From Nocardia asteroides (lineage in GTDB: Bacteria; Actinomycetota; Actinomycetes; Mycobacteriales; Mycobacteriaceae), in contig CP082844.1 of assembly GCA_019930625.1 (NCBI GenBank), forward strand, positions 3,658,001 through 3,722,000: DNA of 64,000 nt, read 5' to 3'. Numbering within the stretch: position 1 is the stretch's first letter; every line of letters begins with the position of its first letter. Below the pieces are notes generated by a model that saw only the letters and a list, made by a program, of their open reading frames with translations, did not search any database and was not told where the DNA came from. This document shows positions 6,001-14,741 of the stretch, piece after piece. A program made the position numbers and the translations under genes.

Positions 6001-9000
6001 TCGCCAGGGCCGGTCGCCCAGATGCTGAACTCGGTGGGGCCGTACAGGTTCACCATGCGCCTGCCCGGCGCCCATCGCTCGATCAGCTCCGGCGTCGCCG
6101 CCTCGCCCGCGACCGCCAGCACGCGCAGATGTTCCAGGCCGGCGGGTTCCATGGTGGCCAGCGCCGACGGCGTGATCACCGCGTGGGTGACGCGCTGGGT
6201 GCGCAGCAGGGTTTCCAATTCCGTTCCGCCGTAGACGTCCGGCGGCGACACCACCAGCCTGCCGCCCGCGCCGTGCGCGGTGAGCAGCTCGAACACCGAG
6301 GCGTCGAAGCTGGGGGAGGCCACCTGGAGCGCGCTGGCGGTGTGATCCAACCCGAGCGTCTCCCGTTGCGCGGCGACAAGGTTCGCGATTCCGCGGTGGC
6401 TGAGCAGCACGGCCTTCGGTTTGCCGGTGGAGCCGGAGGTGTAGATCAGGTAGGCCGTCTGGTCCAGGTCGATCGGCCCGCCGCGCTCCTCGTCGGTGAT
6501 CGGCGCTTCGGAGACCGTCATCACCCGCCGGATGGTGTTGAGGTCGTCGAGCAGCAGCCAGTCGATCGTGCCTGGCAGCGTCTCGCCGGTCGCGGTGACC
6601 GTCACGCCGATCGGGGCCTTGGAGTCGGTGAGCATGTGCTCGATGCGCTCCACGGGGTAGTTCGGGTCCAGTGGGGCGAACGCCGCGCCGGTCTTGGCCA
6701 GCGCCCACACCGCGACCACCGATTCCAGTGAGCGGGTGAGTGCCAGCACGACGAACACCTCGCGCCCGACACCCCGGCGCAGCAGCATCCGGGCGAAGCG
6801 ATTGGACCAGGCGTCGAGTTCGCCGTAGGACATGGTGAGTTCACCGGCGGTGATCGCGATCGCGTCCGGATCGATCCGCGCGCCCGCGGTGAGCAGCTCG
6901 GGCATGGTGGCCTGCGGCACCGACTCCGGGCCGCGCACCGGCACGAGCGCGGCGCGTTCGGCCTCGTCGCAGTACTGCAGTTGCGAGACCAGCGCGTGGG
7001 GGCTGTCCGCCAGCTGGGTGAGCAACCGGACGAACCGATCCAGCAGCGGCAGGGCCGCTTCCCGCGGAAGTTGGTCGGCCATGTACTTCAGCGTGATCCG
7101 CAGCGTGTCCTGACCGTTGTCGCCGCGCAGCGGGATCACCATGAGATTCAACGGGTACGGCGTCGCGTCGGTGCCTTCCACGTCGAGCACCCGCATGCCC
7201 GCGATGTCCAGCGCCTGCGACAGCGCCTCGCGATCGATCGGATAGGACTCGAAAACGGTCAGCGTGTCGAACAGTTCGGCCAGCCCCACCGCTTGGTGGA
7301 TGGCGGCCAGTCCCACGTGCTGGTGGTCCAGCAGCCGCACCTGCTCGGACTGCAGGCGCGCGAGGAGGTCGGTGACCTTCTCCGACGGATCCAGCCGCAC
7401 CCGCACCGGCAGCGTGTTGATGAACAGGCCGACCATCTCCTCGACTCCGGCCAGTTCCGGCGGCCGTCCCGAGACGGTGCCGCCGAACACCACGTCGGTG
7501 CGACCGGTGAGCATGGCCAGCAGCATCGCCCACGCGGCCTGCACCAAGGTGTTCACCGTGGCGCCCGCTTCCCGGCCCGTGGTCTCCAGCCCGGCGACGG
7601 TGGCGCGGGACAGGTCGACGGAGATCATCCCGGTCTCGGTCGATTCGATTCCGGCGAGGGTGGGCACCGCGCGGGTCGGCGTGTCGATGCCGGCCAGCGA
7701 ATCGGTCCATGCCGCGAGGGATTCGCTGTCGTCCCTGCTCGCCAGCCAGGTCAGGAACTCGCGATAGGAATGCGCCTGCGGCAGGGCCGTGGTGTCGCCG
7801 TCGGTGACGTAGAGGGTGAGCAGTTCGCGCACGAGCAGCGGCGTCGACCAGCCGTCCAGCACCAAGTGGTGATTGGTCAGCACGAAGCGGTAGGTGTCGG
7901 GTGCGATCCGGATGAGCGTGCAGCGCAGCAGCGGGGGATGGGTGAGCTCGAACCGGGTGCGCGCGTCCAGCGCGATCAGCCGGTCCAGCTCCCTGGCGCG
8001 CTCGTCCTCGTCGGCCATGCCGGTGAGATCCGCTTCCCGCCACTCGATCTCGGCGTCGGCCAGAACCAGCTGGCGCGGGCCGTCCTCGGTCTCGACGAAG
8101 GCGACGCGCAGGTTCTCGTGGCGGGTCACCAAAGCCTGTGCGGCGCGACGCAACCGGGCCGCGTCGACGGTGCCCGCCAGGGTGAGCAGCGACTGCACCG
8201 TGTAACCGTCCGCGGTGTCGGAGTCGTAGAGCGCGTGGAAGAGCAGACCGTATTGCAGCGGCGAAAGCGGCCACACGTCGGCGAGGTTCGGGTAGTCGCG
8301 CTCCCAGGCATCGATCTGCGCCTGGGTGACGGTGACCAGGTCGAAGTCCGACGGTGTGCGTCCGCCCGCGCTCGCGGACCCGGCGTGCCCGGCGAGCGCG
8401 GCCAGCGCCTGCCCCCACAGCGCGGCGAGCTCGCCGAGGTCGGCCTCGTCGAACAGCCGTGCGGCGTAGGCCCAGGTCACTTCCAGGCCCGCGTCGGTGA
8501 GCACGGCGTTGATGTCCACCGCGGCGGCCAGCGGCGCGCGGTCGTCCTGGGTCGCGGCGAACCGGCGCGGCAGCCACGGCTGCGCGTCGCCGCCGGTGGA
8601 CGCGCGACCGAGGTAGTTGAAGCTGATCTGGGGGGTGGGCGCGTCCGCGAGCGCCGCCGCGGTCTCCGGGACCAGGTAGCGCAGCATGCCGAACCCGATG
8701 CCCTTGTCCGGCAGGGCGCGCAGCTGTTCCTTGGTCGCCTTGATCGCCGCGCCCGCCGCGGGGCCGCCCGCGAACGCCTCCGCCACGTCGATGCCGGTCA
8801 GATCGATCGCGACCGGGTAGACGCTGGTGAACCAGCCCACCGTGCGCGCCACGTCGGCGCCGGGCAGGATGGTCTCCTCGCGGCCGTGGCCCTCCAGCGT
8901 GAACAGCGCCGAGGTGCGCCCTCGCCAACGGGCCAGCGCCAGCACGAGCCCTGCCAGCAGCACGTCGTCGGCGCCGCAGTGGAAACGGTCCGGCGCGGTG

Positions 9001-13003: not shown

Positions 13004-13033
13004 CGCGACCCGAACATCGCTGTTCGGGTCGCG
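13004..13033 (-). terminator. Perfect hairpin between the adenylation fragment and the NRPS gene
   Basis: The arm GCGACCCGAACA (13005-13016) pairs with TGTTCGGGTCGC (13021-13032) around the tetraloop TCGC, and 13004/13033 adds a thirteenth pair. It lies 20 bases past the stop of the adenylation-fragment gene and 150 bases before the NRPS start, on the transcribed minus strand. No U-run follows, as is common for actinobacterial hairpins. It may be a partial terminator or attenuator, or may stabilise mRNA ends. Confidence 0.7.
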
Positions 13034-13052: not shown

Positions 13053-13514
13053 TCAGGCGGATGCGGGAAGAAGGTCCAGGTCGGCGGTGCCCAGCGGGGC
13101 GGAAGAACTGGTGAGGTAGCGCTGGAGGGTGGAGCGCTCGTCCAGCACCAGCCAGGTGATCGCGCCGGCCTGGTCGGGCCGCTGATCCTTGGTGGTGACG
13201 CCCACCGGGGTGCCGAGCGCGAAGGAGCCGTCTTCGGTCACGGGGATGGTCACTGCGCCGATCTTGGTGGCGGCCCGCTCGGCCACGACGGACTCGATGG
13301 GCTGGTCGATCGCCACCGCGATGCGGGTGCCGGGGCCCGCGCCGATGCCGAGCAGCAGGCGGGCGAGGCGGTTGGACCAGCGATCCAGTTCGGCGTAGGT
13401 GAGGTCGCAATCGGCGGTGGACACCACGACCGCCTGCGGATCGACCTCGGCGACGGGCTCGGCCAGCGGCAGGACGTAGAGGTTGTCGGCGAGCGAATCG
13501 GTCAGCGTGTGCAT
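13053..13514 (-). CDS. Free-standing N-terminal adenylation-domain fragment
   Basis: A 153-residue protein; ATG at 13514 is preceded by GAGGA at good spacing. Residues 38-85 match the start of NRPS A domains: LTYAELDRWSNRLARLL is the A1 core, and the A2-like region runs AATKIGAVTIPV. The usual DPxYPxxR after A2 is replaced by TEDGSFALG. The protein ends where the A3 P-loop (YTSGSTG) would begin, so it lacks the ATP-binding loop, the aminoacyl pocket and the C-terminal subdomain and cannot adenylate. It lies 198 bp upstream of the NRPS in the same direction, with a hairpin between. It could be a decaying domain remnant or a dedicated accessory protein; the intact frame, good ribosome site and clean ends favour a translated gene. 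Function unknown. Confidence 0.75.
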   Translation of the reverse strand: MHTLTDSLADNLYVLPLAEPVAEVDPQAVVVSTADCDLTYAELDRWSNRLARLLLGIGAGPGTRIAVAIDQPIESVVAERAATKIGAVTIPVTEDGSFALGTPVGVTTKDQRPDQAGAITWLVLDERSTLQRYLTSSSAPLGTADLDLLPASA

Positions 13515-13619
13515 TTCGTGTCCTCGAGTGTCGATTGGGAGGTTGTTCTGCGTACCTCTTAATCTCGTCCTCGAGCGGCCCTTCCGACAGCAACCCCAGC
13601 GCTGGTCCGGGCACTCCCA

Positions 13620-13639
13620 GGGTGGGCGAAATCCCACCC
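13620..13639 (-). terminator. Hairpin after fecB
   Basis: GGGTGGG (13620-13626) and CCCACCC (13633-13639) pair around a 6-base loop, 13 bases beyond the fecB stop codon on its coding strand. There is no T tract. Weak candidate terminator separating fecB from the adenylation-fragment gene. Confidence 0.5.
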
Positions 13640-13652
13640 AAGGGTGTGGCGC

Positions 13653-14741
13653 TCAGTCGGTCACGTAGCCGTTGAGCGTGTTGCGCAGATCGGTGAGCAG
13701 GGCGCGGGCGGCGGTGAGGCCCTCGCCGTGCCAGACGCTGTCCTCCACGGCGAACACCCGGCGGTCGGTGGCGGCGCCGAGTTCCTTCCATTCGTCGGTG
13801 CGCAGCACCGCTTCACCGTGCTCCTTGCCCTCCCGGCCCGCGAGGATCACGTAGATCACGTCGCCTTCCACCTTCGTGGCGAACTCGCCCCCGCGCACGT
13901 CGAACGAGGCGCCGCGCTGGGCGGCGGGCCGCTGCACGCCCGCGTCGCCGAGCACCTGGCCCGCGAAGCTGTCGCCGCCCTGCACCTGGTCGGTGTCGGC
14001 GGTGAACCGGATGACCGATGCCTGCGTCTGGCCCGCCGCCAGCGCGACACCGGTGTCGCGCGCCTCGGTGCGGTAGTTCTGCAGGGCGGTCTCCGCCGCG
14101 CCCAGACGTCCCGAACCCGCGGCGAAAGCCGCGAATTCGGCCTGCCAGCTGTTGTTCGAGCCGACCAGCACGGTCGGGGCGATGGCCTGGAGCGCGGCGA
14201 AACTCGCCGCGCCGGTGGGGATCTCGCCGAGGATCAGGTCGGGGCGCAGATCGGCGATCCGGGCCGGGTCGGGTTGCGCGGCGGTGCCGACGCCGGGAAT
14301 CTTCAGCACGCCGGTCCCCAGATAGGCCGGTTGCGGGCTCGGCCCGTCGAGGGTCACCGTGCCGACGACCCGCTCCCACAGGCCGAGCGCGCAGACCGCG
14401 TCCAGCGCGGAGGTGGTGAGCACGACGATGCGCTGTGGATCGGCGGGCACCTCGGAGACCCCCGCCGCATGCGTGACGCTCCGGGTCTGCGCATCCGCCG
14501 GGTCCGGCGCGCTCGGCAACGCGCACGCCCGGGTGGTGTCACGCTCCAGACCCACCACGCCCGCACCCGCGATATTCGTGGTGGTGCGCACGATCGAGAC
14601 GTCGTCGTCGCTCTTGCCGCCACAGCCCGCCGCCAGAACAGTCGCGCACACGGCGGCGACCACGATCACCCGGCGACCCGCGGCGGCGGGTGTGGGAGAA
14701 GCTGTGCGGTTTCGGAAGCGAACGAAGGCGCTCAGCGGCAT
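13653..14741 (-). CDS. fecB: FecB-type iron-siderophore-binding lipoprotein
   Basis: A 362-residue periplasmic-binding-protein-type protein. The N-terminus has basic residues, a hydrophobic segment and a lipobox ending LAAGC (Cys near 40), so it should be lipid-anchored outside the membrane. Hallmarks of the FecB/BtuF fold follow: PADPQRIVVLTTSALDAVCALG near 100, and LRPDLILGEIPTG near 170. Divergent from ctaD, as M. tuberculosis fecB (Rv3044) is beside ctaD (Rv3043c); that protein is implicated in carboxymycobactin/heme binding. Here it points toward the NRPS cluster, so a role in capturing its iron-loaded product is plausible but inferred. No transporter permease is in the window. The ribosome site before ATG 14741 is weak, so the start is uncertain. 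Confidence 0.88.
   Translation of the reverse strand: MPLSAFVRFRNRTASPTPAAAGRRVIVVAAVCATVLAAGCGGKSDDDVSIVRTTTNIAGAGVVGLERDTTRACALPSAPDPADAQTRSVTHAAGVSEVPADPQRIVVLTTSALDAVCALGLWERVVGTVTLDGPSPQPAYLGTGVLKIPGVGTAAQPDPARIADLRPDLILGEIPTGAASFAALQAIAPTVLVGSNNSWQAEFAAFAAGSGRLGAAETALQNYRTEARDTGVALAAGQTQASVIRFTADTDQVQGGDSFAGQVLGDAGVQRPAAQRGASFDVRGGEFATKVEGDVIYVILAGREGKEHGEAVLRTDEWKELGAATDRRVFAVEDSVWHGEGLTAARALLTDLRNTLNGYVTD

Follow-up and report, generated by a model that had tools for sequence, protein, structure and literature searches.

Our analysis showed that the gene at positions 13053 to 13514 of the window, which is the whole stretch of 64,000 nucleotides of Nocardia asteroides DNA that was analysed, belongs to a conserved gene family adjoining one type of synthetase in most of the carriers sampled. 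On balance, its product is probably a catalytically dead accessory, derived from an adenylation (A) domain, which is dedicated to the adjacent trimodular starter-C nonribosomal peptide synthetase (NRPS) and would act in trans.

The coordinates given to this gene in the preliminary description were correct, and the gene lies on the minus strand (Table 1). PF00501 (AMP-binding) was the sole Pfam family detected in the 153-aa protein, whose residues 22-93 match positions 5-77 of that family with 49.2 bits (cut-off 29.9). The protein corresponds by homology to the N-terminal ~150 residues of an A domain and ends about 6 residues short of YTSGSTG, which bears out the earlier proposal of half an A domain cut before the P-loop. 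The P-loop (A3) and motifs A4-A10 are all missing from it, and it therefore cannot adenylate in the known way. Both the A1 and the A2 cores had been said to be retained. The A1 core (LTYAEL) is indeed present, but only the first half of the A2 core (K-x-G-A) remains, and the invariant F and D after K-x-G-A are gone.

Table 1. Positions in the window of the stand-alone gene and of the features around it.
Feature	Position	Strand	Remarks
Trimodular NRPS, 4434 aa	1..12854, extends beyond window	minus	begins 198 bp 3′ of stand-alone gene
N-subdomain of second A domain (A2N)	6441..6908	minus	ends computed from P-loop position
Hairpin between gene and synthetase	13004..13033	minus	perfect 13-bp stem, no T run
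Stand-alone N-terminal A-subdomain protein gene	13053..13514	minus	153 aa (P0001); ATG 13514-13512, stop ends 13053
Shine-Dalgarno-like GAGGA	13521..13525	minus	6 nt 5′ of ATG, read from sequence
Conserved upstream element	13539..13660 (genome 3671539-3671660)	minus	~25-146 bp upstream of gene
FecB-like periplasmic binding protein gene	13653-14741	minus	upstream of stand-alone gene, Pfam

A joint alignment with the domains A1, A2 and A3 of the synthetase from 41 loci showed that the block D-P-x-[YH]-P-x-x-R-I, near-invariant across all three domains, is absent from the stand-alone protein. The loss of the DPxYPxxR element noted before is thus confirmed; the invariant F preceding this block is lost as well, and the W-L-x-L-D strand near the C-terminal end is retained. 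In the same alignment R127, L130 and Y133 are near-fixed in the stand-alone protein and not so in A1-A3, and W46, S47, L55, A68, V77 and R132 are common to the stand-alone protein and A2, and not to A1 or A3. These fixed residues of its own, together with those shared with A2, indicate that the protein is a remodelled one with its own signature rather than a simple piece of an A domain.

The neighbouring NRPS contains a starter C domain, three A domains, three T domains, one TE domain and six condensation-family stretches, and by their motifs its E domains are presumably in modules 1 and 3. It is followed on its 3′ side by an ABC-type ATPase gene and two permease-like genes, which we take to be DrrABC-like. 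The FecB-like gene on the other side of the stand-alone gene is probably outside the unit, because the same place is occupied by different genes in G065 and G133. The hairpin between the stand-alone gene and the synthetase, possibly a terminator or an attenuator, was not conserved in the 38 of 41 loci tested: it is identical in 3 of the 38 intergenic stretches (those of the window and two near relatives), and a stem of at least 8 was found in 7 of them.

A single-sequence protein search returned 96 proteins at E<=0.001, the named ones being nearly all Nocardia 'AMP-binding protein', and a profile search with members of other genera included returned 248 proteins at E<=1e-8, with Aldersonia and Antrihabitans among the best 120 of the 248. 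These searches admit only 0.55-1.75 times the query length, so that similar length is partly by construction, and the genome searches therefore provide the independent evidence that the frames stand alone. Across 150 genomes of the genus Nocardia, 109 stand-alone frames in 106 genomes were found among the matches listed, which are best matches, weaker copies being missed. The starter C domain gave 124 listed matches at 60-100% identity, 60% being the cut, and these were spread over 109 of the 150 genomes. All but four of the listed frames (105/109) were directly upstream of the synthetase on the same strand, with a median gap of 205 bp from match to match. Among the matches listed, 105 genomes had both the frame and the starter C domain, 40 had neither, four had the starter C domain only, and one had the frame only. 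The 56 distinct stand-alone proteins from the loci were 129-157 aa long, and orthologues of similar length beside the same synthetase, the check proposed earlier, have thus been found.

Linkage is not complete. One of the four genomes with only the starter C domain, G156, carries a lower-scoring stand-alone copy, and in the others, G167, G246 and G272, no copy was found among the listed matches or in the upstream regions. The synthetase of G246 without a listed copy has the same architecture as the linked ones. Altogether 19 starter C matches lacked a listed partner, and the upstream regions of 18 of them (all except G190:C18) were examined. A copy was present in five of these regions (degenerate in one) and absent from 13, which counts against the accessory reading. 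The degenerate copy, in G262 (L102 2758-3396), adjoins a paralogous synthetase frame of 2860 aa. In G042 (L063 10773-12096) three tandem stand-alone copies were found ahead of one NRPS. G001 and G032 (another genus) have the stand-alone gene 3′ of the NRPS, in G032 as judged from match positions. Orphan copies, with no NRPS in the stretches examined, occur twice in G015 and once each in G061 and G042:C20. Among the four unpaired listed frames, G157:C409 and G217:C23 were also orphans (5 kb around each examined), and G200 and G221:C75 were left out of further reading.

Selection on the gene was compared with that on the synthetase in 14 close genomes (13 and our own). The stand-alone gene had a median dN/dS of 0.39 with a dN of 0.089, and the N-subdomain of A1 had 0.27 with a dN of 0.084; the ratio was 0.12 for the starter C domain and 0.11 for the rest of A1. 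In more distant pairs the median of the stand-alone gene rose up to 0.59. The NG86 method handles such GC-rich codons only crudely and gives inflated ratios, and the comparison with A1 outweighs the absolute value. Purifying selection acts on the gene and is little weaker than that on the homologous subdomain. In a quick-method tree of 78 rows with few columns (145), built from 68 of 137 domain rows and 10 P proteins, all 38 stand-alone rows fell on one side of a single branch with an SH-aLRT of 97, and 10 of the 11 rows labelled as second A domain formed their own group with a support of 98. This is compatible with a single origin of the stand-alone family.

Relationship to the synthetase was closest for its second A domain, which scored best of the three against the family profile in 41/41 linked synthetases (A2 123-142 bits, A1 84-117, A3 54-101); 40 of the synthetase loci had been drawn from a set of 86, itself reduced from 97. 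The A2 N-subdomain (A2N) was also abnormal in its rate. The ratio of N-subdomain to core distance was 0.78 in A2 versus 1.60 in A1 and 2.04 in A3, and five A domains from another Nocardia NRPS, sampled in 20 genomes and with a starter C domain 56-59% identical, gave 1.46-2.08. Thus the N-subdomain is faster than the core in seven other A domains, and A2 is reversed. Among the 14 close genomes, 3.2% of residues and 18% of fourfold sites differ in A2N, compared with 13.5% and 23% in A1N, so that the constraint on A2N is mainly on the protein; 39 of the 41 loci entered the second part of the fourfold-site comparison. Such a constraint could come from binding of the stand-alone protein or from another demand on A2N. 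Four NRPS copies without an adjacent gene had N/core identities to the A2 of the window's synthetase of 0.87/0.84, 0.88/0.87, 0.77/0.81 and 0.74/0.79, that is, in two of the four A2N was at least as conserved as the core. In other genera A2N was less conserved than the core in four of five loci. A mirror-tree analysis did not single out A2, the partial correlations being 0.31 for TE, 0.23 for the A2 core, 0.18 for A2N, 0.17 for C2 and 0.16 for A1N.

The conserved upstream element consists of three CACCC..GGG-like units ~22 bp apart, followed by TTGCTGTCG and GACGAGATT, and is a putative operator or promoter. A profile built from 27 sites found it ahead of 40 of 41 copies of the gene, with training that overlaps these genomes. 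Another profile, from 12 Nocardia NRPS-linked sites, was run on 25 other loci (327 kb) and gave 11 distinct sites at E<=1e-3. Nine of them precede stand-alone genes, some of these being orphans and one the 3′ copy of G001, and two precede NRPSs without the gene. This profile failed to detect the copies of L111, L112 and L113, and the tandem copies of G042 gave weak scores (E 0.04-0.08). We dropped the idea that the element is specific to the stand-alone gene, since the 27-site profile also found it in 10 of 21 upstream regions of synthetases lacking the gene, corresponding to 8 of 18 distinct loci. As an RNA family the element gave four matches, all far below gathering scores, and this candidate was rejected too. 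Elsewhere in the own genome, sites were found at C1:4375467 (L198, E 5.8e-14), 4331676 (L199, E 1.3e-8), 6604327 (L200, E 7.1e-6) and 6518731 (L203, E 0.008). The genes after them are presumably FAD monooxygenase-like, alpha/beta hydrolase-like, fatty acyl-AMP ligase-like and type III PKS-like, respectively, and these sites may represent a multi-cluster regulon. Because the element stands before orphans and before other loci, it appears to mark a regulon of which the stand-alone gene is a member even when unlinked, and it is not private to the gene.

An accessory of the adjacent synthetase, as suggested in the preliminary description, is supported by linkage, selection and co-occurrence; it may be a docking partner or chaperone. 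The tie to one synthetase, the kinship with A2 and the constraint on A2N favour an accessory that would dock in trans. Against such an accessory stand the synthetases with no copy, the mixed behaviour of A2N outside the linked loci, the outcome of the mirror-tree analysis and the presence of the element ahead of synthetases lacking the gene. Action in trans is suggested by the orphan copies (G015, G061, G042, G157 and G217) and by the finding of the element before orphans with a model that had not been trained on them. The stand-alone protein would thus work as a protein partner of the synthetase and might help an A domain to fold, to stay soluble or to adopt its working position. Its likeliest contact would be module 2, since no other part of the synthetase is as closely related to it as A2N, which is also under abnormal constraint. 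It is possible, if rather doubtful, that the family represents a new class of NRPS accessory, namely an A2-related, catalysis-free half-subdomain that serves as folding or conformational partner of module 2 in clusters without an MbtH gene. Completion of a split A domain in trans was rejected, because the protein has no active site and its neighbour has three complete A domains.

Several other explanations have to be considered. The stand-alone protein is a truncated A domain and a degenerate copy exists in G262, as would be expected for the decaying relic of a lost loading module. However, the family occupies one branch, is under purifying selection and has conserved residues of its own, and 102 frames out of the 109 listed had no reported early stop (the stops of the remaining rows are near the frame end, or the frame was not examined further). 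We therefore consider a relic extremely improbable. The earlier opinion that the gene is not obviously a pseudogene is supported, with orthologues of similar length, intact frames and, apart from G262, no degenerate copy. Slightly less improbable, yet still very unlikely, is a leader reading frame needed for expression of the synthetase by coupling or attenuation and not as a protein. The position directly upstream of the synthetase and the hairpin after the gene in the window agree with it, but conservation is seen in the amino acids, with synonymous sites about as variable as those of the synthetase, the window has a 198-bp gap between gene and synthetase, the hairpin lacks conservation, and the copies of G001 and G032 are 3′ of the synthetase. 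The least probable reading, also raised earlier, is a decoy for an MbtH-like protein. A Pfam search found one to three MbtH genes in each of 33/33 genomes, which agrees with this reading, but in none of the 33 did one lie within 0.8 Mb of the stand-alone gene on the same contig. PF03621 had two matches in the own genome, at 2.52 and 2.72 Mb, and none in the 153-aa protein. An earlier regular-expression scan of 176 loci had given a single match, itself an MbtH locus, and had missed a second known one. As far as the accessible text of the sources goes, MbtH contacts centre on A-domain residues ~378-422 (PMC7593251) and include Ala841 of ObiF1 (PMC6668435). Going by these published residue numbers, the main contact region would lie beyond the fragment, which disfavours the decoy; single contacts described for E94 of TxtB and E163 of TxtA may fall in or near the fragment.

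Two further alternatives carry more weight. The product could be a protein of the same regulon whose function is outside the synthetase, for example a small protein that binds a ligand or acts as a regulator and has no more than the operator in common with the synthetase. This would suit the orphan copies with the element and the sites elsewhere in the own genome, yet only one of the 150 genomes had a listed copy but no listed starter C match, and this genome (G200) is fragmented, with ~1340 contigs, and holds part of a related synthetase. We regard such a function as distinctly unlikely. A negative regulator or decoy, in which a dead mimic of A2N occupies a C domain, the C-terminal part of A2 or an external partner and so limits activity, is unlikely as well, if a little less so. 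It would have the same linkage, the same kinship with A2 and the same A2-type residues, and helper and restraint cannot be told apart from sequence. Nevertheless, that the gene and the synthetase mostly occur together one to one would be more usual for a helper. We thus prefer the accessory acting in trans on the adjacent synthetase.

Small partner proteins of NRPSs are known chiefly as MbtH-like proteins. A conserved, dead A-domain fragment found together with a single synthetase family would add a second and unrelated kind of partner. If the folding of A domains or the conformation of a module is under its control, the fragment would offer a small and separable tool for the expression and engineering of such enzymes, and also a route to the product of one of the most common Nocardia NRPS clusters. 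The unusually constrained A2N is a concrete place for testing the partner role.

We recognised no description of such a stand-alone protein in the literature searched by titles and abstracts, and the small protein is unmentioned in the accessible text of PMC7413640, PMC4035055, PMC5550956 and the A-domain review PMC11253843. The neighbouring synthetase fits the cluster family GCF 5, by its published description and by E domains that we placed by motif. According to PMC7413640, GCF 5 is likewise a trimodular NRPS with E domains in its first and last modules and is widespread in Nocardia, found in 75 of 101 genomes; the accessible text mentions no small protein of this kind, and 'AMP-binding' and 'truncated' occur 0 times in the main text. 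Compared with the A domains of the ANL superfamily (PF00501), the stand-alone protein has clear homology over the first ~150 residues, with the A1 core and half of the A2 core, but differs from them in lacking the A3 P-loop, A4-A10 and DPxYPxxR and in having new fixed residues. NbtT of the nocobactin pathway, as described in the accessible text of PMC7413640, is similar in being A-domain sequence apart from an NRPS and acting in trans; it is, however, a stand-alone A domain, whereas the fragment is under a third of one and has no active site. If the helper model is right, the protein would resemble the MbtH-like proteins (PF03621) in being a small product of an NRPS-adjacent gene that acts on the NRPS in trans, but it is unrelated to them in sequence, about twice as long, devoid of the MbtH motif and descended from an A domain.
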